Shown here piece by piece: positions 7,875 through 24,196 of a stretch of 26,566 bases of DNA. The stretch spans positions 1-26,566 of the forward strand of contig NYZA01000041.1 of assembly GCA_002686955.1 (NCBI GenBank), in the 5' to 3' direction. The stretch is from Gemmatimonadota bacterium. Lineage in GTDB: Bacteria > GCA-2686955. Numbering within the stretch: the stretch's first letter is position 1; each line of letters begins with the position of its first letter. Below the pieces are notes generated by a model that ran no database searches, was not told where the DNA came from, and saw nothing but the letters and a program-made list of their open reading frames with translations. The translations under genes and the position numbers were made by a program.

Positions 7875-8518
7875 TCAGGGAATCCAGCGCAGGTTCCCCG
7901 GACCGCCCCAGGCCCCCATGTCCGAGCGTTCGCCGTTGGGGAACCAATCGGGCCAGCGACTGTCGGAATCCCAAATGCCGTCCGAGATCAGGGGGTCGCC
8001 GCCGTCGATGCAAGGCGAGCTCAGCCCTGGGTACTCCGGGAAGCCTGCCAATGTGAAGAAGCCCGGATCGGTATCGATATTTCCCTCGCCTGGCCAGCCG
8101 CCCCCGACATCGCTGTGGCTGACGACGATGCTGCCGCGAATGATCGAGATCTCGGCGGGGACGTCGTTCCAGAAGATGCAGTTTCGGAGTGTCGCACCGG
8201 TGCTCGCTGGAGCGGTGTCCAGCACGAGGGCCCCGCCGCTCGTACAAAGGTTGCGGGTCGAAGTGCACTGATGAAATCTCGATTGGACATGAAAGCCGGT
8301 CGCGTATCCAAGGCCGCCGATTTCGGAAACGTTGTCGGTGACGAGACAGTTCTCGATCACCTGTAGACATTGCCATGCGCTCCGTCGGTCGCTACTTATC
8401 TGTTGTTCGTGATCGACACATCTGAAACCCTGTTTCTATTGTGCTCGAAGACGATGCCGAAATCGGCGAGTCCGATTGTGTTGTGGTCAACAGTCAAGTT
8501 TGTTCTTGAGCCGTTGGC
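7875..8518 (-). pseudogene. Decayed beta-helix surface protein gene, N-terminus lost
   Basis: The minus strand encodes the C-terminal part of a beta-helix protein in two frames. The upstream piece (8518 to 8396) reads NLTVDHNTIGLADFGIVFEH and ends ITNNR-stop. Shifting one frame, the text continues ISSDRRSAWQCLQVIENCLV and runs to 7875 with the signature PCIDGGDPL ... WFPNGERSDMGAWGG. A one-base change near 8400 would rejoin the pieces, so this is a frameshifted remnant. Its N-terminal portion and signal peptide are missing: upstream of about 8518 the DNA belongs to the FGE-like gene, whose last 24 bases overlap this remnant in another frame. It resembles the intact beta-helix gene at 5027-6271. 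A GTG-started 161-residue frame (8360-7875) might still be translated. Confidence 0.7.
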
Positions 8519-10743
8519 GGCGCGGGGGCGGTTCTCGCGGAGCGACAGCACCGAAAGCCGTCGTCGTCGTACCGATCGCGCGGCATGTGAAAATGCTCTC
8601 TGTGTGCGCAGCGCAGATCGGCCGGGTCCTCACCCCAGTCCCCCCCGCCACGCAGCATCGGAACACGCTCCAGTCCGGCCTCCGCCATCGGATCCAAGAC
8701 ACCGAGGTAGCTCTCGTTGGGGGAGCTCTCGACCTCCTCTTTCGAGAGAGTGGAGTCGGTCCACTCGTTGATGTTGCCGCTCATATCGGCGACGCCGAAG
8801 CCGGAAATGCAACCGGGAAAAGCGCCATTTCTGCGGAGGTGGAAGTGCTCGAAATTGAGAGGCGTGTAGCAGGCGTTCTCATCGAATACGCCGCCGTAGG
8901 GATAGGTAGATTGATTCGGCCCCTTGCACGCCCTTTCCCACTCCTCCTCCAAGCAAAGGCGTTTGCCCTGGATGCGGCATAGATAGCGTGCCTCTTCCAG
9001 CGTGACATCGACCCGTGGATAGACGCCGGATCGGCCTGGGTAGGGGTACGCATCGATGGAAAAGCGAGGTATGTAGATCGGTTCCAGCTCCAGCTCACTT
9101 GAATCCCGTTCGTTGTGATCACGCGGACTCCCACGTAGGAGCACACCCGGGGGAACAGATACCATGGGAATGGAATCCTCCCGAGCCGGACGGCAGACGG
9201 CGGGAACCAAAAGGAAGGGGTCTAGCGATAGAGTGTCATCGATTGCATCGAATACGACGCCGACGCCACGCACCACACCTCCGGCGAGCCAGCGAAGGGA
9301 GCGACCCACGGGAATCGCCACCCTTTCGTGATCGTCGAATCGGAATCGGAGCCGGTTCTCCCCGCTGGGTATCGGCTTGCTGTCGGTGATCCAAAAGAAC
9401 GACCCCGTCGCGCCGTGCTTCGAGGCCGAACCAGGTCGGATCGCCCGCACTCTGAGCATCACTGTTCCGATGTGCGGAGGCTGAATATCGAGGTCTCCGG
9501 CCCAGACGCCGATCGCAGCTCCGGCAAGCGTCACACTACGCTCGGGCTCTGAGGAAGCGGCAAGGGCGAACGAGCCGACTCTGGGGACCTCACGTAGCGC
9601 TACCGGATCGGCCACCAGTGCCAGCTCGGCGGGAAGAAGGGTCGTACGAGCCATCCGTGGCGCCGAAGACACGGCCCTGCACAGCTCGGGCAATGTCGAT
9701 GTGAGATCGCAGAGGCGACTCGCATCATCCTCCCAGGCAAACACGCGATCTATACGTCGCTCCGCCACGTATCGAGGGTCGAAGAGGGCTCCGCCAGGGA
9801 GAACGAGGTCGCGGTCAACGGGAAGGGCTGCGATCGATCGTGGCGCCAAGCGGTCTGCGTGATATCGAACCGCCTCCAGTATCGATGGGGGAGCGTCGAA
9901 GACGAAGATTCTTGCGCCGTCGGGGATATCACAGTGGAGTCTGCTCAGGTCATCGAGCGCCCGCCCTTGCACTTGGCGAGCGTCGATTCGCGCCGGGAGA
10001 TTGATCTGCGAGGCAAGACGGCTCGCCGGAACCGCCACGACGGCCAAGGCCCAGCCGTATCGGCCGTCCAACAGACGGGCCAGACCGGCAGTGGCCAGTG
10101 CCAGTCCGCCAGCCGCCATCGGCCCTGCGAACGACTCCGAGAGTGCGATCGACGGATTCGCCGGCCTCCAAAGTAGTACGAGCGCGACTCCGAGAAGGGG
10201 GAGCGGCACCCACGTCGCGATCGAGTCTCTCCCGACGCGCCATCTGCGCATGACTGCGATCCAGCCGATCCACGTCCATCCGATCAGAGCTACGCCCAAC
10301 AGAATGGCGCCGCCTCCGATGCGCGAGCTCCAGTCCAGGATAATTGGATGGGCCGCGAAAACGATGAGGCCCACCCAGGCGGCGCCGCTTCGACTAGTCA
10401 GGGCTCGACCCAGCATGCCGATGGTGAGGGTTGCCAGGGCGTAGGATGCCAACGACACGAGATGCCACATCCTTCGGCCGCCCCAAGATTGGAGATCCAC
10501 GAGGCGTAGCGCCTGGTCGGCCAATGCTGGCAACGATCGCCGGTCCCACCCGGGCGCGAACAGCCAATCGAGGCCCTCGTAGCCACCGCCATAGATCCCC
10601 GGAAACGCCCACTGCACACCGAGTGCGGCCAGTGCGGCGGCCAGAACCATTGGTCCGATCGACCGCGCCCAGTGGGCCGCGGCGTGAGGGGTCTGTCCCT
10701 TCTTCGCGCGATGCAGGCCCGGTGCTTCGGTCTGTGATCTCAA
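8494..10743 (-). CDS. Polytopic membrane protein fused to FGE-sulfatase-like domain
   Basis: This encodes 749 residues from a TTG at 10743 preceded by a strong GAGGGGG. A longer open frame runs to 11163, but it would cross the divergent gene; ATG 10650 is an alternative. Residues 30-265 hold about seven membrane segments and an acidic first loop (YGGGYEGLDWL), reminiscent of GT-C glycosyltransferases. Residues 270-430 are soluble, with VRYHADRL. Residues 430-520 form a beta-sandwich ending LSLDPFLLVPA. Residues 527-735 are an FGE/SUMF1-type domain (GKRLCLEEEWERACKGP, YPYGG, GVADMSGNINEWT, MLRGGGDWGEDPADLRCAHR, DDDGFRCC). The paired catalytic cysteines of true FGE are not where expected, so this domain is probably a binding or structural relative. 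A short Arg/Ala/Pro tail after FRCC may derive from the junction with the decayed gene downstream. An inverted repeat (ATCTTCG at 10756, CGAAGAT at 10777) lies in its leader. Confidence 0.72.
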   Translation of the reverse strand: MRSQTEAPGLHRAKKGQTPHAAAHWARSIGPMVLAAALAALGVQWAFPGIYGGGYEGLDWLFAPGWDRRSLPALADQALRLVDLQSWGGRRMWHLVSLASYALATLTIGMLGRALTSRSGAAWVGLIVFAAHPIILDWSSRIGGGAILLGVALIGWTWIGWIAVMRRWRVGRDSIATWVPLPLLGVALVLLWRPANPSIALSESFAGPMAAGGLALATAGLARLLDGRYGWALAVVAVPASRLASQINLPARIDARQVQGRALDDLSRLHCDIPDGARIFVFDAPPSILEAVRYHADRLAPRSIAALPVDRDLVLPGGALFDPRYVAERRIDRVFAWEDDASRLCDLTSTLPELCRAVSSAPRMARTTLLPAELALVADPVALREVPRVGSFALAASSEPERSVTLAGAAIGVWAGDLDIQPPHIGTVMLRVRAIRPGSASKHGATGSFFWITDSKPIPSGENRLRFRFDDHERVAIPVGRSLRWLAGGVVRGVGVVFDAIDDTLSLDPFLLVPAVCRPAREDSIPMVSVPPGVLLRGSPRDHNERDSSELELEPIYIPRFSIDAYPYPGRSGVYPRVDVTLEEARYLCRIQGKRLCLEEEWERACKGPNQSTYPYGGVFDENACYTPLNFEHFHLRRNGAFPGCISGFGVADMSGNINEWTDSTLSKEEVESSPNESYLGVLDPMAEAGLERVPMLRGGGDWGEDPADLRCAHREHFHMPRDRYDDDGFRCCRSARTAPAPPTAQEQT

Positions 10744-10872
10744 AAGTCCCCCTCGATCTTCGGAGCAGGTGTCGATCGAAGATGATAGTCGATAGGGCCA
10801 TTCCTCAGCCGGGTTGAAATCACCCCTGGTTCGTTGGAAACTGTCCAGATTCAGAGATGGATCCATAAACCG

Positions 10873-11571
10873 ATGCCGTGCCAACTTCCCTGTCCTCGCC
10901 CCTCGATCCACCCGCTTCGCCCGTTGTGGATCGGTGTGCTGGTCATGCTCCAAGGCGTTGCGGCGGCCGAAGAGGCGGCACTCCTGCCGCCCGGTGCCGA
11001 GATCGTGACGCTCGATGGGCTGGACCAAGAGCACTGGCGCCGTCTCTCGTCCCCGACGATGAACTACGCGGAGCTCTTTCAGAAGCAGGAGGTCTTCGAC
11101 GATCGTTTCACACTCGCCTTTTTTAATGAGCTGATCTTCGAGACACCGGAGGACAATGAGCACGAGCTTCTGGAGCTCAGCGTCGAGGTGCTCCCGATCG
11201 GTCTCGAGTCGTATATCGACCTGATGGTGCGCCGCCGCGTGAACTCCTACTACTGCTTTCGAGTATCGGTACCGGAAGTGATGCCCACCGCCCTCGTCTA
11301 CTACGAGGATGGGCGCGCCGATGGCGTCGAGGCGTGTGATTTCCTACTAACCGAGGGAGAATGGGTCAGGGTTTCTTTGCGTCTCGATGGAGCCGGGATG
11401 ACAGGCGAGATCGATGGCCGGCGGGTGATCGCGTGGAGTCACGACCGGCTCGCCGAGGGCAGGTTCGGTTTGCGGGCGGGCTTTCTACCCGAAACGATGA
11501 TCAGAAAGATAAAGATCGTCATGCGGAATCGCTCGACAGGCGAAATCCGGGAATATAGGAGCTTGTGGTAG
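10873..11571 (+). CDS. Secreted ConA-like (laminin-G/DUF1080-type) domain protein
   Basis: This encodes 232 residues from ATG 10873; an upstream in-frame TTG at 10834 would add 13 residues. A signal peptide is clear (PLWIGVLVMLQGVAAA). The mature part is one beta-sandwich domain: LLELSVEVLPIGLESYIDLM, a Tyr-rich strand VNSYYCFRVS, GEWVRVSLRLDGAGMTGEID, then RVIAWSHDRLAEGRFGLRAG. The order (strand, W-V-x-V/L-x-L, G-x-I-D, G-x-F/I-G-L) is typical of concanavalin-like sugar-binding sandwiches. The same pattern recurs in the N-terminal part of the next protein, so the two look paralogous. It is the first gene of a tightly overlapping operon; its stop overlaps the next start by seven bases. It probably acts outside the inner membrane, perhaps binding glycan. 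No catalytic residues are recognised. Confidence 0.7.
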   Translation: MPCQLPCPRPSIHPLRPLWIGVLVMLQGVAAAEEAALLPPGAEIVTLDGLDQEHWRRLSSPTMNYAELFQKQEVFDDRFTLAFFNELIFETPEDNEHELLELSVEVLPIGLESYIDLMVRRRVNSYYCFRVSVPEVMPTALVYYEDGRADGVEACDFLLTEGEWVRVSLRLDGAGMTGEIDGRRVIAWSHDRLAEGRFGLRAGFLPETMIRKIKIVMRNRSTGEIREYRSLW

Positions 11572-14186
11572 GGAAGGTGGCGAGGCGGCGAGCGATCCAT
11601 TTCGCCGTGACGGTGTTGGCAGTTCTGATCGCGGCGATAGCCAGGGAAAGGGTCGATCGACCTCCTCCGGCACCGATCCCCGAGGGCTGGAATCCGGTCG
11701 AGTACGCCATCAGGAATCCATCCACCCAAACCCTCGTCGCGGGCGACGTTCTCTTTCTGGAAGGCAATCTGTTCCGGAATGAACGGATTGAAACCGATCT
11801 GAGGCTGGAATCTGGAGGCGTGGCCGAGGTCTTCTTCCATCGTCGAGAAAGAGACATCCAAGTGCAGTCGGACTATGGCCTGGTCGGACGGAAGGCATTC
11901 GACTGGTACGCTTTCAGGATCAGCTCACGTGAGGGATTGCCCTGTGGTTTCGTTAAGAGCACGGGACTCAACCGCCGCGACCAGAAATTCGTTGCTCCAG
12001 CGGAACAATGGATCCACCTGCGTCTGGTCTCCCAAGATGGGGAACATGTCGCGTACATCGATGATGTCGAAGTAGATCGATTCGAGGATTTCGAATACCC
12101 CTGGGGGGAGACCGGACTCGTGCCCATAGAGGGCACTATCGGTGTACGCGCTTTCACCGCTACTCCCTTGCGTACATCCGAGACGCCGCCACTCCGTTGG
12201 ACGAGCATCGGCACCCTTGTCGGGCTCTGGCTCACGGCGCTCGGGCTCTGGGTCGCTCTACTCGGTGCGTTGGATGATGGGACCGCTTCGAGGGAAGGCT
12301 CGAGTCGGGCGGCGATGAGAGCCTCACTCGCCCTCGCGGCGTTCGGAGTCATCGGGGGTGCTTTGGGGTGGAATGCTGCGTGGGTTGGCGCGGGGCCTCT
12401 GGCTGCGGCGACTGTTGCTTTCGGGCATGTGTTGCTGATGCAGCATCGCCTGAAAGGAGCACAGGGGCTCCTGATGCTTCACGTCGTCGCTCTCGTCATC
12501 GGCCTGGAGAGCTTCGTCAGGGATACTTCGGCCGCGACGAAATGGGATGCGAGCTATGTCGGGGGCTATGTCAAAGATCGCTTTCTATTCTGGCATATGG
12601 AGCCTGGCAGCCGAGTCTGGGAATCGTATATCAACTCGTTCGGTTTCCGCGGCAACGAGATCGATTTGCACAAACCCGAGGGAACGACCCGCGTGCTCTG
12701 CCTCGGAGGTTCGTCCACCTATGGAGACGGCATCTCGGATTCTCACGACACATATCCCGCGGTGCTGGAGGACCTTTTGAACGCCGGCTCCGACCGGCAC
12801 TATGAGGTTCTGAATGCCGGTGTGTCGGGCTACACGACTTTTCAGGCTCTACGGAACCTCCGAAGAGACCTGCTGAGGCTCTCTCCTGATATAGTGACGG
12901 TCGATTTTGCCCACAACGACAAGGTACCATCCGAAGTCGGCGTTCCGTACCGTGAGCACTGGGCGAAGACGACCACGGCCCGAAGCCGTTGGGTAACGTC
13001 GATTCAAGATACCTTGCACCGTTCGCGGCTCTATATGGGGCTTGTCGCGACGATCACGGGCATGGTCGATGCGGAGGAGATCGGTCCTCCGCCGATCGCT
13101 CTCACCGAAGACCAGATCGATGATGATCTCCCTGTGGACCCCCGGCCTTCGCGAGTTCCTACCTTCGATTTCGAGAAGAACCTCAACGCGTTCTGTGCGT
13201 TGGCGGACAGCTTTGTTTTCGAGCTCGTGCTCATTCCCGAGCCGACATACAATTTTTACTATGATCCACCGGATCTTGAAGACTACTACGAGATAATGCG
13301 TGCTGTTGGTGACGAGCAAGATCGTCCCGTAGTCGACTCGGTGGATGCGCTGATGCAGCGTCGCTACGACGTGCTCTTTTACGACGACGTGCACTTGACC
13401 GAGCTCGGAGCCAAGCTGCTCGCGCAATCGATCTACTCCACTCTGCGATCGGAGTTGTCGAGCCAGCGTGACCTCGCGTCTCCGGATGTAGCGATTCGCG
13501 GAGCGAAGAGAGCTCGGCGCGCGAGACGGATCCGCGAGAGAAGCTCGACCGATCCGATTCCCCGCCCGAAGCCGCATTTGGTGCGCCGGCGCCAGGCCTA
13601 TCTCGACTCGTTCACCGCCTTCTTCCTGAATATGGGTGCGGAGTGCCCCGAACCCGAAGGGGCCCGATCCCGCGTCCGCGAGAGTCTCGGAAAGAAGTCG
13701 ATCGCCGTAGACTCGGGACTGGGGGAACAGGCGCTGCTGCTGGGTGTCGCGGGATATCACCGAGCGCATTCCGATCATGAGTCAGCTCTCGTTTCGCTCC
13801 TACGCGCCAGAGAAGCGGATCCGGCGGTGGCAGCGATCCAGCTCGAGGTGGCACGAGAGGCGATCGCGCTGACTCGCTTCGACCTGGCTCGGGATGCGCT
13901 TGCGGCCGCCCAGGAATACGCTCCAGGTGATCCCCGCCCTTGCGCGGAGCTGGCCCGACTCGCACTCTTGCAGGGGAAGGCTCAGGAAGCGGTAGAGGCT
14001 GCGCGCGCCGCAGTGGAGCGAGACGAGCGCTCGCCCGCCTCGCTTTATCTGCTCGGTGAGGCCTACCGTCGATCCGGGAAGATGTCGGAATGCCGGGCGG
14101 CATGGGAGAGGCTCGTGGATGTGGCTCCAACCAGCGATGAAACCCGACGCGTCCGCGGCGCTTTGAAACAACCCGGGCAATCATGA
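11565..14186 (+). CDS. Membrane SGNH/GDSL hydrolase with ConA-like and TPR domains
   Basis: This encodes 873 residues from GTG 11565, with AGGAG three bases upstream and a seven-base overlap with the previous gene. One N-terminal membrane segment (13-26) precedes a ConA-like sandwich (55-200), then about four membrane segments (215-320). The SGNH hydrolase domain (375-625) shows LGGSSTYGDG with nucleophile S383, block II NAGVSGYTT (G419), block III VDFAHND (N451) and block V YDDVHLTELG (D607, H610). Ala replaces the usual Gly of G-x-N-D. Residues 650-730 form a basic linker, and 740-870 hold TPR-like helices (SLLRAREADPAVAAIQLEVA, ALAAAQEYAPGDPRPCAELA, SLYLLGEAYRRSGKMSECRA). SGNH enzymes of this kind usually remove or move acyl groups on glycans. 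Membrane placement and neighbours suggest work on a surface polysaccharide. The stop overlaps the next start (ATGA). Confidence 0.82.
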   Translation: MVGKVARRRAIHFAVTVLAVLIAAIARERVDRPPPAPIPEGWNPVEYAIRNPSTQTLVAGDVLFLEGNLFRNERIETDLRLESGGVAEVFFHRRERDIQVQSDYGLVGRKAFDWYAFRISSREGLPCGFVKSTGLNRRDQKFVAPAEQWIHLRLVSQDGEHVAYIDDVEVDRFEDFEYPWGETGLVPIEGTIGVRAFTATPLRTSETPPLRWTSIGTLVGLWLTALGLWVALLGALDDGTASREGSSRAAMRASLALAAFGVIGGALGWNAAWVGAGPLAAATVAFGHVLLMQHRLKGAQGLLMLHVVALVIGLESFVRDTSAATKWDASYVGGYVKDRFLFWHMEPGSRVWESYINSFGFRGNEIDLHKPEGTTRVLCLGGSSTYGDGISDSHDTYPAVLEDLLNAGSDRHYEVLNAGVSGYTTFQALRNLRRDLLRLSPDIVTVDFAHNDKVPSEVGVPYREHWAKTTTARSRWVTSIQDTLHRSRLYMGLVATITGMVDAEEIGPPPIALTEDQIDDDLPVDPRPSRVPTFDFEKNLNAFCALADSFVFELVLIPEPTYNFYYDPPDLEDYYEIMRAVGDEQDRPVVDSVDALMQRRYDVLFYDDVHLTELGAKLLAQSIYSTLRSELSSQRDLASPDVAIRGAKRARRARRIRERSSTDPIPRPKPHLVRRRQAYLDSFTAFFLNMGAECPEPEGARSRVRESLGKKSIAVDSGLGEQALLLGVAGYHRAHSDHESALVSLLRAREADPAVAAIQLEVAREAIALTRFDLARDALAAAQEYAPGDPRPCAELARLALLQGKAQEAVEAARAAVERDERSPASLYLLGEAYRRSGKMSECRAAWERLVDVAPTSDETRRVRGALKQPGQS

Positions 14187-16249
14187 GAGAGGGGTCGACC
14201 GCGCCCCTGATCATTCGCGTCATTGTCGAAGCCGTGGCAGTGTTCGTTGGGCTCTGGGCTCTGATGTGGGTTCGCTTCGGTGAACAGATGAGGATTTTCT
14301 TCGTCAGGGACGACTGTCGCTATCTTGAGTGGGGAAAGCAGTTCGCGACCGATTCCAAGCTCGAAACCGCCGTCAGGTTGTTCACGGAATGCCAAGGGAA
14401 CATGTACCGAGCCTTGCCGAGTCTCACGGCGGGGCCGGACTTCCTTCTGTGGGGATTCGATCCCTTCGGCTGGCATCTCACGACCTCTTCGGTTCACGTC
14501 GCTGCGTGTACCCTGGTCTACTTCATCGGATTCCATTGGTTTCGGAATCGGCCGGCGGCCGTGTTGGCGGCCGTTCTTACGCTTCTCTTCCCGCTCTCGG
14601 TGAATTGTGTTCTCCGGGTGGCTCTGCGCGAAGAGACGATGTGCCTCCTCTTCTACCTACTCGCTCTCCTTCTCTATCTCCTCCACCGCCAGGCACGGGA
14701 GGGTCGGGGCCGAAAGGTTCTCTACTGCGCATCGCTGATATCCGCTCTGGCCGCGGCGTTCTCGAAAGAGGTCGGCGTTGGAGTCCCGATCGCGATCGCG
14801 TTGATCGAGACGATTGCACCGGCGGAGGGTCGCCGGCGCTATCGGAATCTGATCCCCTATCTGGGAGTCGCCGCCATCTACTTGTGCGCGCGCACTCTCG
14901 TGCAAGGCGGGATCTTCCAAGGACTCGCCAACGCTCATGGTGAGGAATACCGATCGGTTGGCGCGTACTTCGCGGATCCTGAAGCGGCTCTTCGTCTCCT
15001 TGCGACCGGCTTTCCACGCTTTCTATTGGTTCCGGCACCGCTGAGAAGTCCTCACTTCAGCGCAACTCTGGGCGCAGCGTCGCTCGCCTGTGCATGGGGT
15101 CTCGCTCTGCTTTCTAGGCGATCGGCTTGCCACGGGCGCATCCTCTTCGCCTGTGTCGCACTGGCATTCGGGGCCTTTCTACCGGCTCTGCCCCATGTCG
15201 CCCATTTTGGGCTCGAGATGAGTGAAATGAGGCGCTTCTACATCGCTTCGCCCTTTGCGGGGCTTCTGATCGGCGGACTGTTGGCCGGTCAATGGAAACC
15301 AGCCGCAAGAGCGGGCCCCCTCAGCGGCCGTCTGTCGCGCGGAGTCGCAACGGCGGTGGGATTGGCATTGGCTGCAAACCTGATACGAACCTACTGGATA
15401 GCATATCGATGGAACACAGCCACGATCAGGCAAGACGCAGCGGAAGCACACCGGCTCGCCGGCGCCCTTGGTCCATGGGCGGAGAAGGTGCCGCCTGAAT
15501 CCTGTCTCTACTTTGTTGGGACCGATCTAACCGATGCGATCCTCTTCACCAATCTCCTACGCGACAGCCAATTCGGCGCGGCGCCGATCGGCAATCTCGG
15601 GCAGGTCGCCTACCATCTAGCGCCGCCCTTCGGCAACTCGCCTCTCATATTCGAACCCGAGCCGCATCGGTTCCGGGCCGACCTCCTCGACTGGGGAGGG
15701 AGCGACTACCTGATTCGTTGGGATCGGAACCAGATCGTGGACGAGACGGCCCGGATGTCGCGCGCCGTGGCCGAACGGTGCAAGACCACCGAAGAGGTAG
15801 TGATTCGCTGGGAAGGGGAAGAGCTGATGGAATGGCATGCCATCGGTTATCCACGACTCGACCCCTTCTTCAATGCTGGCGGACTTCGCGCTTCAGGTCC
15901 GGGACCGACGTGGATCGCTATGACCAATCTCAATCTGTCGCCGGCGCTGGTGCGCGAAGTCCGTGTGGCCTTGGCGGCGATAGACGAAGAGAAGACGATC
16001 GGTGAGGCCGACGGAATCCGCTCCTGGACCATTGGATTGCGTTGGAGCGGACCAGCGGAAGAGCGTTTCTCGAACCGAATCGAATTGCCATGGATACCTG
16101 GGCAAACAGATGTGGCCTTCTGGGTAGGAGAGACACCGGGTTGGCTGTTCCTCGACGAAGTGGAAGAGCTTGCGCTGGAGCTCAGTCCCAGCCATTTCGA
16201 CCGATCGGCCGTGCAGGTGGAGCGAATCGAGCTGAGGGGCCATCCGTGA
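14183..16249 (+). CDS. GT-C-like membrane glycosyltransferase with C-terminal beta-sandwich
   Basis: This encodes 688 residues. ATG 14183 overlaps the previous stop (ATGA), so translation is probably coupled. Residues 10-405 hold about ten membrane helices. The first external loop carries the acidic pair of GT-C enzymes in FFVRDDCRYLEWG (D43, D44), and a later loop has VLRVALREETM. This layout matches polyprenyl-phosphate-sugar-dependent transferases (GT39/GT83 and TMTC-like relatives), which act on the outer face of the inner membrane. A soluble region (410-560) includes LYFVGTDLTDAILFTNLL. The end (570-688) is a beta-sandwich with WTIGLRWSGPAEERFSNRIE and WLFLDEVEELALELSP, closely patterned like the module before the FGE-like domain in the gene at 8494-10743. 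Donor and acceptor are unknown. Confidence 0.75.
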   Translation: MREGSTAPLIIRVIVEAVAVFVGLWALMWVRFGEQMRIFFVRDDCRYLEWGKQFATDSKLETAVRLFTECQGNMYRALPSLTAGPDFLLWGFDPFGWHLTTSSVHVAACTLVYFIGFHWFRNRPAAVLAAVLTLLFPLSVNCVLRVALREETMCLLFYLLALLLYLLHRQAREGRGRKVLYCASLISALAAAFSKEVGVGVPIAIALIETIAPAEGRRRYRNLIPYLGVAAIYLCARTLVQGGIFQGLANAHGEEYRSVGAYFADPEAALRLLATGFPRFLLVPAPLRSPHFSATLGAASLACAWGLALLSRRSACHGRILFACVALAFGAFLPALPHVAHFGLEMSEMRRFYIASPFAGLLIGGLLAGQWKPAARAGPLSGRLSRGVATAVGLALAANLIRTYWIAYRWNTATIRQDAAEAHRLAGALGPWAEKVPPESCLYFVGTDLTDAILFTNLLRDSQFGAAPIGNLGQVAYHLAPPFGNSPLIFEPEPHRFRADLLDWGGSDYLIRWDRNQIVDETARMSRAVAERCKTTEEVVIRWEGEELMEWHAIGYPRLDPFFNAGGLRASGPGPTWIAMTNLNLSPALVREVRVALAAIDEEKTIGEADGIRSWTIGLRWSGPAEERFSNRIELPWIPGQTDVAFWVGETPGWLFLDEVEELALELSPSHFDRSAVQVERIELRGHP

Positions 16250-17934
16250 CCGGTCGATGGCGTGGAGTGGTCGAGCACCCTCTCGCTTGCTCGATGCTAG
16301 TAGGTTTGGTGCTTCCCGCGCGGGCCGCGCATGCTGACTTCCGTTTCGATCGATTCCGTGGAATCGAATCGCTCGAGCTAATTGGAGACGCCGGTCGTTC
16401 CGCGGACGGGATCCGCCTCGTTACCACCTCCCCCGACCAAAAAGGGGCGGTATGGACACGAGTTGCGCAGGATATCTCCAGTGGTTTCGATACCGATTTC
16501 ACCTTTCGAATCAGCGAATCGAGCGATCCCGAGGGCGATGGACTCGCCTGGGTGATTCGCGGTGATAGAGACACGAAGATCGGCGGAACCGGTGCCAGCA
16601 TCGGCTACGATCTTATTCCAAAGAGCGTTGCCATCGAGTTCGACACCTACTACAACCCCACGCTCGACGACCCGAACGGGAATCACATCAGTGTCCACAC
16701 CCGGGGAGCGTTGCCGAATAGCCGTCTACACCGCTATTCTCTTGGCTATGCGACCGATATCCCTAGATTGACCGATGGAGAGCCGCACAGAGTCTGGCTC
16801 CACTATCGCCCGCCACTGCTGATTGTCTGCATCGATGATCCAGCGGAGCCGGTTCTTCTCGCGGCGGTCGATCTCACCTGGATTCCGGATGGGCGTGCGT
16901 GGATCGGGTTTACTGCGGGAACCGGCGACTCCTTCGGCAACTACGAAGTGCTGAGCTGGGCTTTCGCCGAGTTGCGGACCGCGATTCGTGTTCCAGAGGA
17001 TCTTCCGACGATCCAAGCCGCCATCGACAGCGCTCCAGACTGGGGAACCGTTGTTGTTTCTCCCGGCACCTATACGGGTGATGGAAATGTGGAGCTGGAT
17101 CTGGGTGGCAAGCCGATCCACCTTCGATCGAGTCGAGGTCCCGAATCCGCATTCATTGAATGCGAAGAACAGAGCCGTGCCTTCGACCTCTTTCGTGAAG
17201 AGACGATGGGGAGCATCGTCGAAGGTTTTACGCTCCGGCGTGGTTCGGCATCGGGGGAGGGAGAGGGGCGCTCCGGAGGCGGAGTCTACTGCGCGCCGGG
17301 AACCAAACCTACATTCCTGCGGTGCACCTTCGGCTTCTGTCACGCGGATTCCCACGGTGGAGCGGTCTACTGCGCACCGGGATCGAAGCCCCGATTCCTG
17401 GCTTGCCGCTTTGTCGGAAACCGGGCGGGCGGCGATGGGGGTGCGCTCTTCGTCGATCGTGGCGCCGAAGTATGGCTGGCCAATTGCCTGGTTTCCGGGA
17501 ACGCATCCTTCGGTTCGGGCGGCGGTGTTCGCGCGCTCGGCGGGGGCACGCTCCGCAACTGCTCCATCGTGGACAACAGTTCCGGCATGTCGGGCGGTGG
17601 GATCGCCGTGGAAGGCGCGAGCAGAGAGGGGAAGCTGACGAACTGTCTCCTATGGGCGAATCGGCCGGACCAGATCCGCGGCCCGATGGAGATCGCCTAC
17701 TCCTGCATCGAAGGAGGCTGGACGGGAGCAGAGGACATTCGCCTGAGACCTTGGACAGGGAACGTCGCAGCCGCCCCGGTCACGGACGCCGGCAATCTCA
17801 TAGGTTCGGGTTTCGCGCCATTTGCGCAGGCTCACCCGGATCATCCCTCTCGCAGAGGGGAATGGCGAATCGACTGGCCCGTGAGCTATCCCGCCGGCCC
17901 GGCTCCGTCCATCGGTGTTTTCGAAGGGCGATGA
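16246..17934 (+). CDS. Secreted L-type lectin / beta-helix fusion protein
   Basis: This encodes 562 residues from GTG 16246, with GAGGGG six bases upstream; GTGA overlaps the previous stop. A signal peptide (ending LPARAAHA) covers about 30 residues. Residues 31-245 are an L-type (legume-like) lectin domain: DFRFDRFRGI, GDGLAWVIRG, the hallmark SVAIEFDTYYNPTLDDPNGN with NHISVHT, then HRVWLHYRPPLLIVCID and IGFTAGTG. The Asp/Asn residues in FDTYYNPTLDDPNGN are typical metal and sugar ligands. Residues 248-560 are a right-handed beta-helix starting IRVPEDLPTIQAAIDSAPDW, with GGGVYCAPG, GGAVYCAPG, GGALFVDRG and GGGIAVEG coils. Sugar recognition plus a helical stalk suggests a surface adhesin or glycan-organising protein. 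Last gene of the four-gene operon; its 3' end overlaps the convergent SGNH gene by 49 bases. Confidence 0.85.
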   Translation: MTGRWRGVVEHPLACSMLVGLVLPARAAHADFRFDRFRGIESLELIGDAGRSADGIRLVTTSPDQKGAVWTRVAQDISSGFDTDFTFRISESSDPEGDGLAWVIRGDRDTKIGGTGASIGYDLIPKSVAIEFDTYYNPTLDDPNGNHISVHTRGALPNSRLHRYSLGYATDIPRLTDGEPHRVWLHYRPPLLIVCIDDPAEPVLLAAVDLTWIPDGRAWIGFTAGTGDSFGNYEVLSWAFAELRTAIRVPEDLPTIQAAIDSAPDWGTVVVSPGTYTGDGNVELDLGGKPIHLRSSRGPESAFIECEEQSRAFDLFREETMGSIVEGFTLRRGSASGEGEGRSGGGVYCAPGTKPTFLRCTFGFCHADSHGGAVYCAPGSKPRFLACRFVGNRAGGDGGALFVDRGAEVWLANCLVSGNASFGSGGGVRALGGGTLRNCSIVDNSSGMSGGGIAVEGASREGKLTNCLLWANRPDQIRGPMEIAYSCIEGGWTGAEDIRLRPWTGNVAAAPVTDAGNLIGSGFAPFAQAHPDHPSRRGEWRIDWPVSYPAGPAPSIGVFEGR

Positions 17935-18998
17935 CGATTCAGGTAACGAAGGATCGCTTTCGCCACGAGTGCGTTTCCGCGACTGTTGTAGTGCCCGTCG
18001 CTTCGCAGTAGCTCGCTGTCGTCGTTCACGATGTGCTTCTTCATCCATTCACCGAGATCGAGTACCGGCAAACCCAATTCGCCACATCGATTCAAGATGC
18101 CGCGACGAATCTGATCGCCCTCGTCGAAATCTGAATGAGTCGGAAGGTAGACGATCAGAAAGGCCTTGCCAGCCTCCTCGACGAGATCTCGAAAGGCGCG
18201 TAGTACCTGAAAAGGGACATCTTCCGCGCCCGGGTCAGAGGGCGACAAGCCTCGACGCAGGCGGAGGAAACGCATCACATCTGAAGGGCGCACATTTCGC
18301 GTTCCCGGAGGGATCCGATGGGGAACCGGCACGTTGGTCAGCACCAGGTCGTCGCCGATCAACTGGAACAAAGGCCGTCCATGTCCCGAGCTCCATCTGT
18401 CGGAGCGAGCTCGACGAATGTCGTCCTCCATGATTGCGACGATCACTAGATCGGAATCGAACCCAATTCCGTCCTCCGCGTACCAGAGAAACATCTGATC
18501 CACGCCGTACGCGCAAGCCCCCATGTTGATGACTTGGTAGCGGGGATCCAGTGTCTCGATCAATGCGCCGAAGGTGTCTTCGAATCGAACGAATCCGAAA
18601 GTAAAGGAATCACCTACGAGAACAATACGGGAGCGCCCACCCGGAATCTCTGGACAGTAGTCCTGGATTGCTCGAAAGCCGTTCGAATTGATTTGGAAGA
18701 CGATATCCTCACCCGCGAAAACCGGTTCCATATCAACCGTCTTGCCCGGAATGTGTTTCCATCCCAGCGTCGGATCGTACCGATTCACCGGATCTTCCGG
18801 TACTACCCAGGCGGGATCCAGAGTCATCTTGAATCGTTGCCAGTCGGAAAGCAGCCGCGTCAACCTCCCTCCAACAAAAGTGAGGCAGATCGCAACGCCC
18901 GCCCAAGCGGATCCAATGAGCACGCGGGTGGCCACCCTTGCCCGCCGCTTTCTCATGAACGAGCGTGATCGAGATGTGGAGGTGACTATCCGGCTCAT
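17886..18998 (-). CDS. Membrane-anchored SGNH/GDSL hydrolase
   Basis: This encodes 370 residues from ATG 18998, with AAAGGA about three bases upstream. One N-terminal membrane anchor (24-45) follows a basic head (RSFMRKRRARVATR), so the enzyme faces the periplasm. The SGNH fold starts at IVLVGDSFTFGF with nucleophile S131; block II is NMGACAYGVDQ (G160), block III is poorly kept (AIMEDD), and block V is SDGHYNSRGN (D334, H336). The preceding NRYDPTLGWKHIPG and INSNGFR are usual in this subfamily of exported SGNH proteins found with surface polysaccharide genes. It probably deacylates or acylates a glycan. It overlaps the 3' end of the lectin gene by 49 bases tail to tail and is divergent from the next GT-C-like gene, with only 45 bases between starts. 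Confidence 0.82.
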   Translation of the reverse strand: MSRIVTSTSRSRSFMRKRRARVATRVLIGSAWAGVAICLTFVGGRLTRLLSDWQRFKMTLDPAWVVPEDPVNRYDPTLGWKHIPGKTVDMEPVFAGEDIVFQINSNGFRAIQDYCPEIPGGRSRIVLVGDSFTFGFVRFEDTFGALIETLDPRYQVINMGACAYGVDQMFLWYAEDGIGFDSDLVIVAIMEDDIRRARSDRWSSGHGRPLFQLIGDDLVLTNVPVPHRIPPGTRNVRPSDVMRFLRLRRGLSPSDPGAEDVPFQVLRAFRDLVEEAGKAFLIVYLPTHSDFDEGDQIRRGILNRCGELGLPVLDLGEWMKKHIVNDDSELLRSDGHYNSRGNALVAKAILRYLNRHRPSKTPMDGAGPAG

Positions 18999-19043
18999 GG
19001 GTCCTTTCGGCGCCTCAGCAACGTGCCATGTTACCATGCGCGC

Positions 19044-20720
19044 ATGAGCGTCCCACGCGTCCGAGCCGGGCTCTTTGCGGTTGCCCTGACCCTCGCCTTT
19101 CTCGCGATGGGGCTCTTGACCGTCCAAGCGGCCGACGAGTCCAACACCATGGACACCGAGCCGTACCTCTCCGCCGCGATCGGGATCGCGGAGGGAGGAG
19201 GGGCTCTTCGTTGGCTCGGGGATATGTTCGGCGGAAGGTGGTTGGAGACGGACCAGAATCCGATTTTTCATCTTCTGCTCTCCCTGGTTGCCCGCCGGGA
19301 CCTTGCCTTCTTCCCTGAAGCGAAACTGATCACTCTGGCGACAGGTTGGCTCGCGCTCCTCGCATTCTTCCTCTTGGTCCGCCATAGACGCGGAGAGCTC
19401 TGCGCTTCGGTTGCGGCGCTTTTGCTGCTATTCAACGCCAATTTCATTCGCTTGAGCTCGGTCGTAACCGCAGAGCCTCTGCTCTTGCTGTGGGTGCTCT
19501 TGACTTGGTACAGTGTCGCCGAGGGTTTTGCGAGACGGCACATGTGGAGCTTCGCGGGGCTCTTCGTGGGGCTTGCATTTCTGACAAAGGGATCAGGGCT
19601 TCTGTTGATTCCGTCGTCCCTTGGTGCAATTTGCCTGGGGTCACGTTTTTCCGCTTTCAGAAGTCCTCATTTTTGGGGGTTCTTCATCGTTCTCTCTTTC
19701 GTGGGCTCCCCACTCTTTATTCGAAATACTGTGGCATTCGGTAGTCCGATCTACAATTTCAATAACAACTCCCTCTGGGCGGACGTTTGGGACCGCGATG
19801 CTATACAGGAATCGCCTGTATCGTTCTCCCAGTACACGGCAACTCATAGCTGGTCCGACGTCAGTGCGAGGATCAAGACCGGAACTCAGGAACAGGCCGG
19901 CAATCTCCATAGGGTCCTGAACAACACCATCTTGCCCTTCAACGCGGCCGCGGTGCTGAACGACACCCAACCAGGGACTGTCTTTAGCTTTCTCTTAGCG
20001 ATCTTGGCAGCGACAGGAGCGGTATTCGACACGCAAGGGCGCAAGACATTCCTCTGGATCGGTATCCATACCCTGCTTTTCTATGCCCTCTTTTCATGGG
20101 TACACCAGATTCTCGGCGATCCCAGGTTTCTGCTTCCAATCGTACCCTTTATCTACCTCTATGCGGCCGTCGTGATCGCCGGCATACTACAGCCGCTCGA
20201 CAATCGAGCCCCCGGAGCAATTGTTGTCCTGCTTTCCGTCACGCTCGTAGCTTACGCGACACATCTCTTTTGGATACATGACTACGAAGATCCGCGCCTC
20301 TCCTTTCGCTTGGACGACAACCAAGAGGAGCTCCTTTCCTTCCTGGAAGAATCGGTCGGCAGGGATGAGATCTATCTGCTCGACAATATCATGTGGAACG
20401 ACGACTTCAGCAACAAGCAAACCTCGTACCACTTCCGGTGGTTTGCCCGAATCGGTGGCACAGGACTGAATGAGCTACCAGATGTGCATTCACCGGAGGC
20501 ATTTGAGCGCTATGTGAAGGAGAGCGATATCGACCTTCTCATGATCATCAGAAACAATCTCGAGGAGCACGGGGACTATCTTGGACGCTGGCTGGCTTGG
20601 TGTCCGTCGACAGGCATCGAAGTCGTTGCGCCAATTCCGGGATGGTGCGAGATTGAGCGCGATCCCGAGCCGCCGGTTTCCTGGATTGGATTTCGACGAG
20701 CGATGGAGGCGCCCGATTGA
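19044..20720 (+). CDS. GT-C-like membrane glycosyltransferase (paralog A)
   Basis: This encodes 558 residues from ATG 19044; an in-frame ATG at 19023 would add seven. No clear ribosome-binding site is visible for either. About ten membrane segments fill residues 8-420. The first external loop has ESNTMDTEPYLSAA, where D37 or E39 could be the catalytic acid of GT-C enzymes (ArnT/PMT-like, GT39/GT83). Family-like stretches are FFPEAKLITLATG, TAEPLLLLWVLLTWY and GLFVGLAFLTKGSGLLL, the last typical of the central helices of these enzymes. HQILGDPRFLLPIVPF resembles the R-Y/F-x-L-P motif before the last helices. A soluble tail (430-558) ends WIGFRR. It probably moves a sugar from a polyprenyl carrier to a surface acceptor. 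The next gene is similar along the membrane region, so the two are tandem paralogs. Confidence 0.78.
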   Translation: MSVPRVRAGLFAVALTLAFLAMGLLTVQAADESNTMDTEPYLSAAIGIAEGGGALRWLGDMFGGRWLETDQNPIFHLLLSLVARRDLAFFPEAKLITLATGWLALLAFFLLVRHRRGELCASVAALLLLFNANFIRLSSVVTAEPLLLLWVLLTWYSVAEGFARRHMWSFAGLFVGLAFLTKGSGLLLIPSSLGAICLGSRFSAFRSPHFWGFFIVLSFVGSPLFIRNTVAFGSPIYNFNNNSLWADVWDRDAIQESPVSFSQYTATHSWSDVSARIKTGTQEQAGNLHRVLNNTILPFNAAAVLNDTQPGTVFSFLLAILAATGAVFDTQGRKTFLWIGIHTLLFYALFSWVHQILGDPRFLLPIVPFIYLYAAVVIAGILQPLDNRAPGAIVVLLSVTLVAYATHLFWIHDYEDPRLSFRLDDNQEELLSFLEESVGRDEIYLLDNIMWNDDFSNKQTSYHFRWFARIGGTGLNELPDVHSPEAFERYVKESDIDLLMIIRNNLEEHGDYLGRWLAWCPSTGIEVVAPIPGWCEIERDPEPPVSWIGFRRAMEAPD

Positions 20721-20735
20721 TAGTCGCACGATCCC

Positions 20736-20798
20736 TAAGGGTCGGCGAAGAAATAGCTTCCCTTGCATCCCATGAAGCTATTCCTTCGCCGACCCTAA
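20736..20798. repeat. 63-bp palindrome (REP/MITE-like), copy 2
   Basis: The left arm 20738-20760 and right arm 20774-20796 match at 22 of 23 positions around a 13-base loop. It is a short relative of the element at 220-316, in opposite orientation. Arms share 18 of the 22 outer bases, and the loop contains GCATCCCAT, the complement of the ATGGGATGC in copy 1. It sits between two paralogous genes, 15 bases after a stop and about 20 bases before a start codon, so in a joint transcript it would form a very stable hairpin beside the start of the next gene. No T-tract follows. Confidence 0.8.
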
Positions 20799-20816
20799 AT
20801 CTCGAGTAGACACCAA

Positions 20817-22445
20817 ATGCTGCGAAGCCGCTACATACTGGCAATTGTGCTGCTGAATTTCCTGGTGCTCGGGCTCTTCCGCATCAAAGAGAACCGAGAT
20901 ATGTTCCATACGGACCAAGAGGTGTTTCTGCAGAATTCGCTGAGGTTCAATGACGCGAGCATCAGGTTGAAGCTCTTTCCACCGATGCACATGGCGAGCG
21001 TTTCTTCGACGCTTCATCCCCTAATGCCCTATCTGCTCTATCCGATCGCAGGGGATATGCGGACTTTCTATCCAAGCGCCAAGCTGATCAACCTGACCTT
21101 TGGTCTGCTATGTCTGCTTGCTCTCTATCTTCTCGTGGCCGCGCGCTACGGCTCGGTTCCCGGACTCCTGGCAACGCTGCTCTTGTCGGTCAACTCGATC
21201 TTTGTTGTCGTCAGCACGCGGCTCTCATCCGAGCCGATTCTCTTGCTTTTGGTCGTCTTGTGGCTTTTCGTCTCTGTGCGTTGCCACGCGCCTCCCCACG
21301 CCAGAGAACGAGGTGGGAGCGGTAAGTGGATTCTCGCCGGCGTCATTTCCGGTCTTGCCTATCTTTCCAAGCCGACTGGTTTGCTCCTACCATGTTTGTT
21401 CGTAATCGTCTGCATCGCAAGGATGCGTAGCGTCGGAGCGAAGCGCTTTGTTCTCTATGTGTCGGCATTGCTTCTGACGATTGCGCCTCTGATGGTGTCC
21501 AACACAAGGGGGAACAACTCTCCCTTCTACAACATCAATTTCTTCCACCTGCTCTCTCTCTCGGGTCCGTCCGCGCACACCGCCGAAGATCTACAGAGAA
21601 GAGGTGCGTGGGATGTTGCGATGAGCATCGATGGAAAGGAGTTCGTATCTAGGTTGACGGCGCATTCGATCACCTTTTTCGATGACCTCCTTCGCCATCT
21701 TTCCCCCACCAGCATGCCGCAGTGGTTTTCGTTTCCTATTCAGCAGGCCACTCGTTCCGCGGCCGCGCTGATTGTTGCAATGAGTACGTTATACGTATTC
21801 GTTTCCAGAAGAAGAGACGCTCTGGTACTGCTTGTGCTCTTGTTCTCTCTTACTTACAGTCTGTGCATGGTTCCGGCCTTCTCCGTCAATCCTTCGCCAC
21901 GATTCCTGTTGCCGGTTATTCTGATGTTCTCAATCCTCATCGGCGGGTTCTCCACCGCATTTATGGCAGGACAGCGGTGGATCAAGCTCGCTGTTTGCGC
22001 GGTAGCCTTGAGCTCGATTGCCTTACACACGATGCGCGACATATTAGGCAATCCGCTCGAGGCCAATGACGAGTCGGTTGACTATTTCCTGGATTGGACG
22101 TGGTCGGCGGAGGAGGGAGCTCGGCTCGCCTTCTTCGAGCATGATACCTGGCTGGTCGAGGCGCTCGTCCAGAGAGAGGGCCGCCACATTATGAAGGATT
22201 CGATCGACAATGATGTGTGTGAGTTCCCCGAGCTGTACCGATTCCTGCAAGAGAGGGAGGTGGAGTTCCTGCTGATCTCGTCGAGCATATTCTACGATGG
22301 GAATCCAGTCTTGGAGGAGTTCGAGCCGCTCGGGAATTGCGAAAGGCGGGGGAATCCGGCGCGGGAGATTGCCCCCTATGCGGAACTTGTCGAAGAGGGG
22401 CTGCCGGAATGTGGCTATCTGGCGATCTACCGGATGGCTGGTTGA
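20817..22445 (+). CDS. GT-C-like membrane glycosyltransferase (paralog B)
   Basis: This encodes 542 residues from ATG 20817. About ten membrane segments fill residues 5-410. The first loop MFHTDQEVFLQNS carries D33/E35 at the position of the GT-C catalytic acid. It matches its upstream neighbour in FYPSAKLINLTFGLLCLLAL, LSSEPILLLLVVLWLF and GVISGLAYLSKPTGLLL; later, SVNPSPRFLLPVILMF is the equivalent of the pre-final-helix R-F-L-L-P motif. The soluble C-terminal tail (425-542) begins near DYFLDWTWSAEEGARLAFFE and has LPECGYLAIYRMAG at the end. Polyprenyl-linked sugar transfer at the outer face of the inner membrane is inferred; the substrate is unknown. It starts 96 bases after paralog A, with the palindromic element between them. 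Its end overlaps the convergent gene by 19 bases. Confidence 0.78.
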   Translation: MLRSRYILAIVLLNFLVLGLFRIKENRDMFHTDQEVFLQNSLRFNDASIRLKLFPPMHMASVSSTLHPLMPYLLYPIAGDMRTFYPSAKLINLTFGLLCLLALYLLVAARYGSVPGLLATLLLSVNSIFVVVSTRLSSEPILLLLVVLWLFVSVRCHAPPHARERGGSGKWILAGVISGLAYLSKPTGLLLPCLFVIVCIARMRSVGAKRFVLYVSALLLTIAPLMVSNTRGNNSPFYNINFFHLLSLSGPSAHTAEDLQRRGAWDVAMSIDGKEFVSRLTAHSITFFDDLLRHLSPTSMPQWFSFPIQQATRSAAALIVAMSTLYVFVSRRRDALVLLVLLFSLTYSLCMVPAFSVNPSPRFLLPVILMFSILIGGFSTAFMAGQRWIKLAVCAVALSSIALHTMRDILGNPLEANDESVDYFLDWTWSAEEGARLAFFEHDTWLVEALVQREGRHIMKDSIDNDVCEFPELYRFLQEREVEFLLISSSIFYDGNPVLEEFEPLGNCERRGNPAREIAPYAELVEEGLPECGYLAIYRMAG

Positions 22446-24196
22446 GTCGGGGTGCGTTGGTCAGGCACGATCTTGCAGCACGATCCGGAACAATCCAGTT
22501 CTCGTCGCGGCGGCGAAGTGTCGTCGTGATACACGCGATAGAGGAGAACGTCAGCTTCGGCTTTGCCGGCGGAGTGGCGGTATGAGATCGCGGTCTCGAA
22601 CTCAAGACGGCTCGCCCCGAGATGTCGACCATCAAGGCGGGCGAGAAGCCGGGAGAGACGGTACTCGGCGAAGAGCGAAGGCGGAAAATAGCCGAGCCGC
22701 TCGGCGATGAAATCTGCCTGAAGTGCCTCCAACTCGTCGAAATCGTATTGCAGTGCGTCTGTCGGCATGCGGTAAGTCTGTTCTTCGATCATTCCTCCGA
22801 TTCGAAGTGCCTCTTGAAACCGTTCGAAAGGCTCGAAGGAGCGCGCGGCCACGTAGTCGATCCGCGCGGAGGCGAGGAGCTCGCAAAGAGCCCCTTCGTC
22901 TACGTTCTGTGGCGACATATGGTCTGCTAACGCCAGCACGCGTGTATCGCTTCTCCATCCGTAGCAGACGTCTCGATTCGGCACAAGGACACGATCAGTC
23001 TCGGGAGCGCCCGCCACCAGCAACCGCTCGTCCACCAAGAGATAGGGATACATCGGTCCTTCGAATTCCTCTCGGAACTCCTCCGTGTGTAGCTCGCGCG
23101 CCGTTGCCAGCGAGTACGGTATCTTGTGCCCGGCAACGATCGCCGCGACGAACACGAAGAGGAATGGGCCGTGCCATCGGTTGCGAAAGACGGCGATAAC
23201 GAGGAGCTCCAAAGGAAGAAAGAGAAAGGCTGAAAGCAGCGGCAATAGATGTTGTGCGTAGAGATCGTCCACTGCGTAGGCTGCGAAGAGCACGAAATCG
23301 ATACAAACGAAGGCTGCGAGGGAACGCCAGGTTCGGCCCACGAAGAAGGGGATGCAGGCCATGGCGATCAGGCCGAGAAGCCCAATTGTGGATTCGGCGG
23401 CCGCCGGAGTGAATAGCTCCCCGACGATGTGCCCGGCTCGCGCGGAGAAGCGGTGCATCGTGAGCTCGATCTGTGCGGGGTCGTTCAGCTCGAACGCGAA
23501 AGCCAGATTGTCGCGTTTTCGGTAGCTCAGGTACGAGGTCGGTCCTCCAACCGAGACCAGCCAGAGAAGGAGGATCGGCAGCAATATCACGACGAAGACC
23601 TTCGCCGATCGCTCCCGTCGCGCCGCGACCAGCTCGCGCAAGAGCACGAGGGGAACAAGGAGAATGCTGACCCGCACGAATACGCCCGCTCCGATCACCA
23701 GCGCGGCCGCCACAGCTGCTGAAATCCTCCCTACACGCAGAGTGCGTAAGAGTAGCCAGAAGCCCCAAATGGAGAGCGCGACATAGAAACCGACATAGTT
23801 GACCGCACTGGCATCGATGTAGGACGCGGGGAGAAGCGCGTACAGTGCCCCACCCGCAGCACCGGTCCATGGGCGGTCCAATTCGGCACACAGAAGATAG
23901 ACGGCGGGCGTGATGGCGCAGTAGGAGACGAAAGAGACCAGCTGCTGCGGAATGATGCTGCCGGGACCGGGATCGAATAGGTGTTCGAGGAGCCAGTAGA
24001 CCAAGTAGATCGCGAGGCCTTCGCGCTCGCCGCTCTCCGCCCCGAGATTGGCGAGCGGGTTCTCGGAGGCGGCCAGCAGCGAGATTGCGTACCCAAGATG
24101 GCCGTGCCAGGCGAGTGAGCGCAGTCCAACGGCGACAAGGAAGAGCACGAGCGCCACGAGCCAGCGGTCGCGATCCCCGCGGGGTTGCCATCTCAT
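22427..24196 (-). CDS. Polytopic membrane protein, GT-C-like without clear catalytic acid
   Basis: This encodes 589 residues from ATG 24196 (AGG adjacent, weak ribosome-binding site); a longer open frame to 24358 has no better start. At least nine membrane segments occupy residues 12-385: WLVALVLFLVAVGLRSLAW, then GGALYALLPASYIDASAVNY, VFVRVSILLVPLVLL, KVFVVILLPILLLWLVSVGG and others. The soluble C-terminal half (400-589) includes GPMYPYLLVDERLLVAGAP and ends in a Cys cluster, ELDCSGSCCKI. The overall plan (membrane half, then soluble tail with FExFxEAL-type helices) resembles the neighbouring GT-C-like proteins. However, the first external loop (WHGHLGYAISLLAASENP) has no Asp and only one Glu far along it. 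It could be a divergent or inactive glycosyltransferase, or a different carrier-linked enzyme. It is convergent with paralog B, overlapping it by 19 bases. Confidence 0.65.
   Translation of the reverse strand: MRWQPRGDRDRWLVALVLFLVAVGLRSLAWHGHLGYAISLLAASENPLANLGAESGEREGLAIYLVYWLLEHLFDPGPGSIIPQQLVSFVSYCAITPAVYLLCAELDRPWTGAAGGALYALLPASYIDASAVNYVGFYVALSIWGFWLLLRTLRVGRISAAVAAALVIGAGVFVRVSILLVPLVLLRELVAARRERSAKVFVVILLPILLLWLVSVGGPTSYLSYRKRDNLAFAFELNDPAQIELTMHRFSARAGHIVGELFTPAAAESTIGLLGLIAMACIPFFVGRTWRSLAAFVCIDFVLFAAYAVDDLYAQHLLPLLSAFLFLPLELLVIAVFRNRWHGPFLFVFVAAIVAGHKIPYSLATARELHTEEFREEFEGPMYPYLLVDERLLVAGAPETDRVLVPNRDVCYGWRSDTRVLALADHMSPQNVDEGALCELLASARIDYVAARSFEPFERFQEALRIGGMIEEQTYRMPTDALQYDFDELEALQADFIAERLGYFPPSLFAEYRLSRLLARLDGRHLGASRLEFETAISYRHSAGKAEADVLLYRVYHDDTSPPRRELDCSGSCCKIVPDQRTPTQPAIR

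Follow-up and report, generated by a model that had tools for sequence, protein, structure and literature searches.

Do the membrane, hydrolase and lectin-like genes between positions 8494 and 24196 of this stretch of bacterial DNA form one machine acting on an envelope glycan, or have independent accessory genes piled up here? The window analysed (26,566 nucleotides) is an entire contig, C41, of a draft Gemmatimonadota genome (4.28 Mb in 270 contigs, 84.5% complete). The host lineage is isolated and poorly known: one of the compared genomes (G001) belongs to the same family, and the other genomes examined have only the domain in common with the host. Outer-face glycan modification is known chiefly from a few well-studied bacteria, and the initial annotation had proposed for this block a dedicated system of glycan assembly, acylation and recognition.

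Gene content of the window

With a gene finder trained on the local codon usage, nine genes are called in the block; together with Pfam this confirms the gene content at the positions originally reported. Four GT-C-like or related membrane proteins are present, PMT_2 being clear in two, just over the cut-off in 14183-16249 and weak in 22427-24196. Two SGNH proteins (11565-14186, which also has ConA-like and TPR parts, and 17886-18935) match Lipase_GDSL_2, and the lectin/beta-helix fusion (16246-17934), the membrane protein with an FGE-like domain (8494-10650) and the secreted ConA-like protein are likewise recovered by Pfam or profiles. As first noted, the Pfam-scanned window proteins include no standard O-antigen, capsule or pilin-glycosylation enzyme. 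Nucleotide-sugar, priming-transferase, flippase and polymerase genes are all absent from the window. A defence role was also considered and set aside, PADLOC giving no match at E 0.001.

The remainder of the window encodes an MFS transporter with a C-terminal hemerythrin domain (851-2770), which we take to resemble a nitrate/nitrite porter, and a tryptophanase-like beta-eliminating lyase (3643-5022; PF01212, 6.8e-71). A short, apparently truncated beta-helix reading frame (7875-8360, minus strand) resembles part of 5027-6271 and is 40% identical to a protein on contig C239 (L036:4514-6154). At the far end, a secreted protein with a lamin-tail domain and an ExeM/NucH-like stretch (24557-26566) runs past the end of the contig.

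The operon at 10873-17934 and its recurrence

Four plus-strand genes follow one another in the order secreted ConA-like protein, ConA-TM-SGNH-TPR protein, GT-C-like protein and L-type lectin/beta-helix protein. Inspection of the three junctions revealed stop/start overlaps at 11565 (7 nt), 14183 (ATGA) and 16246 (GTGA), and 10873-17934 is, as read from these junctions, a translationally coupled operon. Of all the evidence, this coupling argues best for a joint action of the GT-C, the SGNH protein and the lectin. By the gene calls, an intergenic region (10651-10872) separates the operon from the divergently transcribed FGE gene; no match to a sigma-70-like promoter was reported within it.

The first gene (10873-11571) encodes a secreted ConA-like protein of 232 aa, assigned by profile and by paralogue; its start is probably at 10873, which yields a signal-peptide-like N-terminus. 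It is found by a ConA profile built from the 11565-14186 protein, so that the ConA-like domains are mutually homologous, and it shares 36% identity with the C-terminal domain of a protein on contig C143 (L047:6186-8117). For the ConA assignments in general, Pfam alone gives weak values (3keto-disac_hyd 0.0082; in one paralogue 1.4e-5, plus Laminin_G_3 0.0014), and an AlphaFold model of the ConA-like fold, made without homologues, is of low confidence (pLDDT 42).

The second gene (11565-14186) starts with a GTG that overlaps the stop of the preceding ConA gene. Its 873-aa product comprises an N-terminal TM segment, a ConA-like domain, further TM segments, an SGNH domain and TPRs (Pfam Lipase_GDSL_2 plus TPR, 9.7e-17; junction; paralogue). 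Both the catalytic Ser (GGSST...) and the Asp-x-x-His (DDVH) of its SGNH domain are intact. The third gene (14183-16249) encodes a GT-C-like polytopic protein with a C-terminal beta-domain, identified by PMT_2, paralogue and motif. The fourth (16246-17934) encodes a secreted L-type (legume-like) lectin with a right-handed beta-helix (Lectin_L-type 4.3e-20, Lectin_legB 2.4e-17, Beta_helix 6.3e-7; junction). The Lectin_legB/L-type profile spans the whole lectin domain, and a metal-site-like motif (EFDT...DP...H) is present as in legume lectins; unlike these, the domain is joined to a beta-helix and co-translated with a GT-C.

One other full-length ConA-TM-SGNH-TPR homologue exists in the host genome (C143:41593-44112, 32% identity). 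Its SGNH domain keeps the Ser block and has lost Asp and His. Upstream on the same strand lies a gene for a 643-aa ConA-TM-ConA protein, the one whose C-terminal domain resembles the small ConA protein of the window, with a GT-C gene divergent from it, so that the ConA/ConA-SGNH-TPR pair recurs once in the genome in the order and strand seen in the window. Carbamoyltransferase, sulfatase-family and radical SAM genes lie alongside. The full-length ConA-SGNH-TPR protein is absent from the single same-family genome, and its architecture was found in no other genome searched; it also has no named relative in the scans of the genome contigs. When 386 genomes of the domain were compared, matches to window proteins were confined to the generic SGNH and FGE domains, and the ConA-SGNH-TPR query matched at E 1e-15 in its SGNH region alone. 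The gene combination and this one architecture are so far found only in the host genome; the separate parts are of known kinds.

Could the operon be the sole unit, with all other genes of the block merely chance neighbours? Past 17934 the genes alternate in strand, and in the loci compared the neighbourhoods of 17886, 19044, 20817 and 22427 are not conserved. The genome is also rich in these families (24 PMT_2 matches in a genome-wide profile search, 17-19 SGNH and 42-43 sulfatase-family); 9 carbamoyltransferase and 8 FGE matches were counted as well. We counted neighbours with the window excluded, assuming uniform placement in a fragmented draft and trying four families at two distances. Under these terms 3/15 SGNH genes have a GT-C no more than 10 kb away (P=0.04; at 5 kb P 0.09), a co-location that is marginal because so many combinations were tried; sulfatase genes are not enriched (3/42 within 10 kb). 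Against a loose pile-up stand the carbamoyltransferases (4/9 within 10 kb, P=0.0007) and the FGE genes (3/7, P=0.004), both co-located with GT-Cs, as well as the coupled frames at three junctions and the two-gene paralogous unit on C143. We consider such a pile-up unlikely, though still to be reckoned with, and prefer to read the block as an envelope-glycan island. As a separate observation, another contig (C196:6904-20027, in the host assembly G000) carries an array of five sulfatase-family genes and two carbamoyltransferases.

Glycosyltransferases, SGNH proteins and the FGE fusion

Two further plus-strand genes encode PMT_2 (GT-C) glycosyltransferases, 19044-20720 (Pfam 1.6e-8) and 20817-22445 (3.2e-11), and a weakly GT-C-like polytopic protein is encoded on the minus strand at 22427-24196, with a PMT_2 match below the cut-off (18-23 bits, covering positions 8-154 of 160). 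For 14183-16249 the PMT_2 score of the genome-wide search barely exceeds the cut-off (27.4 bits) and hmmscan lists none; a paralogue on contig C4 (L025:16038-18314; 32% identity over 242 aa) itself matches PMT_2 at 6.1e-8. Three of the proteins carry an acidic motif in their first outer loop (RDD in 14183, DTE in 19044 and DQE in 20817); 22427-24196 and the FGE fusion lack it. The beta-domain of 14183 is common to GT-Cs on contigs C43 and C4; that it is also shared with the FGE protein is only suggested (E 0.1-0.3 both ways, P 0.014).

The profile and the first-loop DD/DE motif link the window GT-Cs to GT39/GT83-type PMT_2 and TMTC-like enzymes, and the C-terminal beta-domain of 14183 may be compared with EmbC, whose C-terminal module is reported to be lectin-like (PMC3044687). 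They differ in having no close relative among solved structures; a search of these with the window GT-Cs gave no match. The three-component Gtr system of periplasmic glycosylation (GtrA/GtrB/Gtr; PMC11127046) likewise combines acidic first-loop motifs with polyprenyl-phosphate sugars at the outer face, a donor type that we presume for the window GT-Cs. In contrast to that system, the window has no GtrB-like synthase or flippase, and it unites several GT-Cs with SGNH and lectin proteins in a single locus. GtrA (PF04138) has no match in the genome, a negative limited by its 84.5% completeness, and in the Pfam-scanned set of window proteins no GT2 polyprenyl-phosphate sugar synthase adjoins a GT-C. 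With GtrA not found and no nucleotide-sugar, priming-transferase, flippase or polymerase gene in the window, these GT-Cs have no evident supply of sugar donors, which counts against the glycan-island reading set out below. Elsewhere in the genome, ordinary glycan genes lie close to GT-Cs (GT2 and GT4 transferases on C260; sugar aminotransferases and an epimerase on C241), and because these loci carry such genes the GT-Cs of the host probably take part in glycan synthesis. Four consecutive GT-C genes were also seen on contig C172 (L031:9818-17170).

The second SGNH protein of the block (17886-18935, minus strand) has an N-terminal signal anchor (Lipase_GDSL_2 2.2e-5; SGNH profile), keeps its catalytic blocks, with Ser in GDSF... 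and Asp...His as DGH, and shows a weak ALGX match in Pfam. A beta-domain-TM-SGNH build is seen in five SGNH proteins of the genome (on C41, C143, C261, C62 and C4), each with a long N-terminal extension that we read as the beta-domain, for C261, C62 and C4 from its sequence rather than by a profile. The protein at 11565-14186 resembles the AT3-SGNH acyltransferases OafB and OatA (PMC9833829) in combining a polytopic region with an outer-face SGNH domain bearing Ser and Asp-x-x-His; it differs by its N-terminal ConA-like domain, its C-terminal TPRs and about 4-5 TM segments instead of 11, and the host genome shows no AT3 signature.

In which direction would the acyl chemistry run? SGNH domains of AT3-SGNH proteins function as acyltransferases (PMC9833829). 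By analogy with AlgX, AlgJ or AT3-SGNH proteins, the SGNH membrane proteins could be scaffolds, either non-catalytic or of O-acyltransferase type, and acylate the glycan through a donor system encoded elsewhere, an idea in keeping with their TM-plus-SGNH architecture and with the ALGX match on 17886-18935. Yet the 10-TM AT3 domain (PF01757) gave no match in the genome, as far as 84.5% completeness allows, and no acyl-transfer partner is encoded in the window; we regard the scaffold scenario as quite improbable. Because AT3 was not found, an esterase is favoured over a transferase and deacylation of a glycan is more likely than acylation. The acylation step of the initial annotation is not borne out, given the missing AT3 and the C143 paralogue that lacks catalytic Asp and His.

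The minus-strand gene at 8494-10650 encodes a 718-aa protein with a truncated GT-C-like membrane region, a middle beta-domain and a C-terminal FGE-like domain (Pfam FGE-sulfatase 1.2e-22; profile). The FGE-like domain belongs to a C-type-lectin-fold family. A GT-C profile trained without this protein matches its membrane part at E 5.3e-6 in a strongly biased composition, and by this match the part is a truncated GT-C relic. The motifs GKRL...EWE and GN.NEW are those of the FGE/SUMF1, EgtB, GldK/PorK and PvdO family (PF03781). The protein departs from that family in that its domain is neither a free enzyme nor fused to a kinase but joined to a truncated GT-C, and in its lack of the catalytic cysteine region: aligned to human-type FGE, the region of the two active-site cysteines (after GGSW/Y) is deleted. 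AlphaFold, run without homologues, gave pLDDT 35 for the fusion. No other GT-C-FGE fusion occurs among the loci examined, where long FGE proteins look like kinase-TM-FGE proteins. In unrelated genomes (L078-L092) the closest FGE domains often end long proteins with one TM segment that appear kinase-like from their N-terminal sequence. On contig C239 (L036:8892-13932), a GT-C without acidic motif is followed by a carbamoyltransferase and a homologue of the window FGE protein; over 417 aa this GT-C shares 32% identity with the C143 GT-C, yet its PDE motif is gone.

These features allow a sensing scenario, in which an FGE domain on a dead GT-C, analogous to the kinase-TM-FGE proteins, would detect surface glycans or glycoproteins together with the lectins. 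The missing FGE cysteines, the external kinase-like matches and the C239 FGE protein two genes away from a motif-less GT-C all fit. The window, however, contains no kinase, receptor or regulator gene, and the FGE gene on C4 adjoins GT-Cs with intact motifs, and we hold sensing to be very unlikely as the function of the locus.

A candidate envelope-glycan island

The reading that we prefer, with a probability of about 0.5, is an island that would build and trim a glycan of the envelope, working at the outer side of the cytoplasmic membrane. Its core, the glycan assembly originally proposed, is backed by the acidic motif in three GT-Cs, the coupled four-gene operon, the C143 recurrence near a GT-C and the co-location of related genes with GT-Cs outside the window. 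For recognition, the lectin domain of 16246-17934 makes a plausible case. The evidence does not extend to the full 15.7 kb as one dedicated system, the genes at 17886-24196 having unconserved neighbourhoods.

Starting from the domains, gene coupling, catalytic motifs and paralogous recurrence that the analysis establishes, we infer the island's substrate, carrier, direction of acyl chemistry and interactions as follows. In the periplasm, the GT-Cs 14183, 19044 and 20817 would decorate a glycan or glycoprotein with sugars from polyprenyl-phosphate carriers. The ConA-TM-SGNH-TPR protein, whose translation is coupled to that of GT-C 14183, would act as a carbohydrate esterase anchored in the membrane: the ConA domain would grip the glycan, the Ser/Asp/His of the SGNH domain would remove acyl groups (transfer being less likely) and the TPRs would dock partners. 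The secreted lectin/beta-helix protein and the free ConA protein may bind the product or retain it at the surface, and the FGE-like domain would be a non-oxidase that probably binds a ligand, with its dead GT-C part as membrane anchor. Against this reading, the role of the SGNH module may be non-catalytic, as the C143 paralogue without Asp and His indicates; the lack of sulfatase enrichment near GT-Cs likewise counts against it. Because inactive versions of SGNH, FGE and GT-C proteins are common in the host's islands, binding or scaffold roles are suggested for some members.

A broader idea, which we advance with considerable doubt, is that the host's loci represent a lineage-specific and undescribed class of envelope-glycan machine in which the five SGNH proteins, with a polytopic region and a beta-domain that would bind glycan, work with GT-Cs, and degenerate GT-C and FGE proteins serve as sensors or adaptors. 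At least 24 GT-Cs, nine carbamoyltransferases and a repeated beta-domain-TM-SGNH family in an isolated lineage point to a chemistry more varied than that of the three-component and AT3 systems, and defined genes are now available for testing glycan esterase and glycosyltransferase activity.
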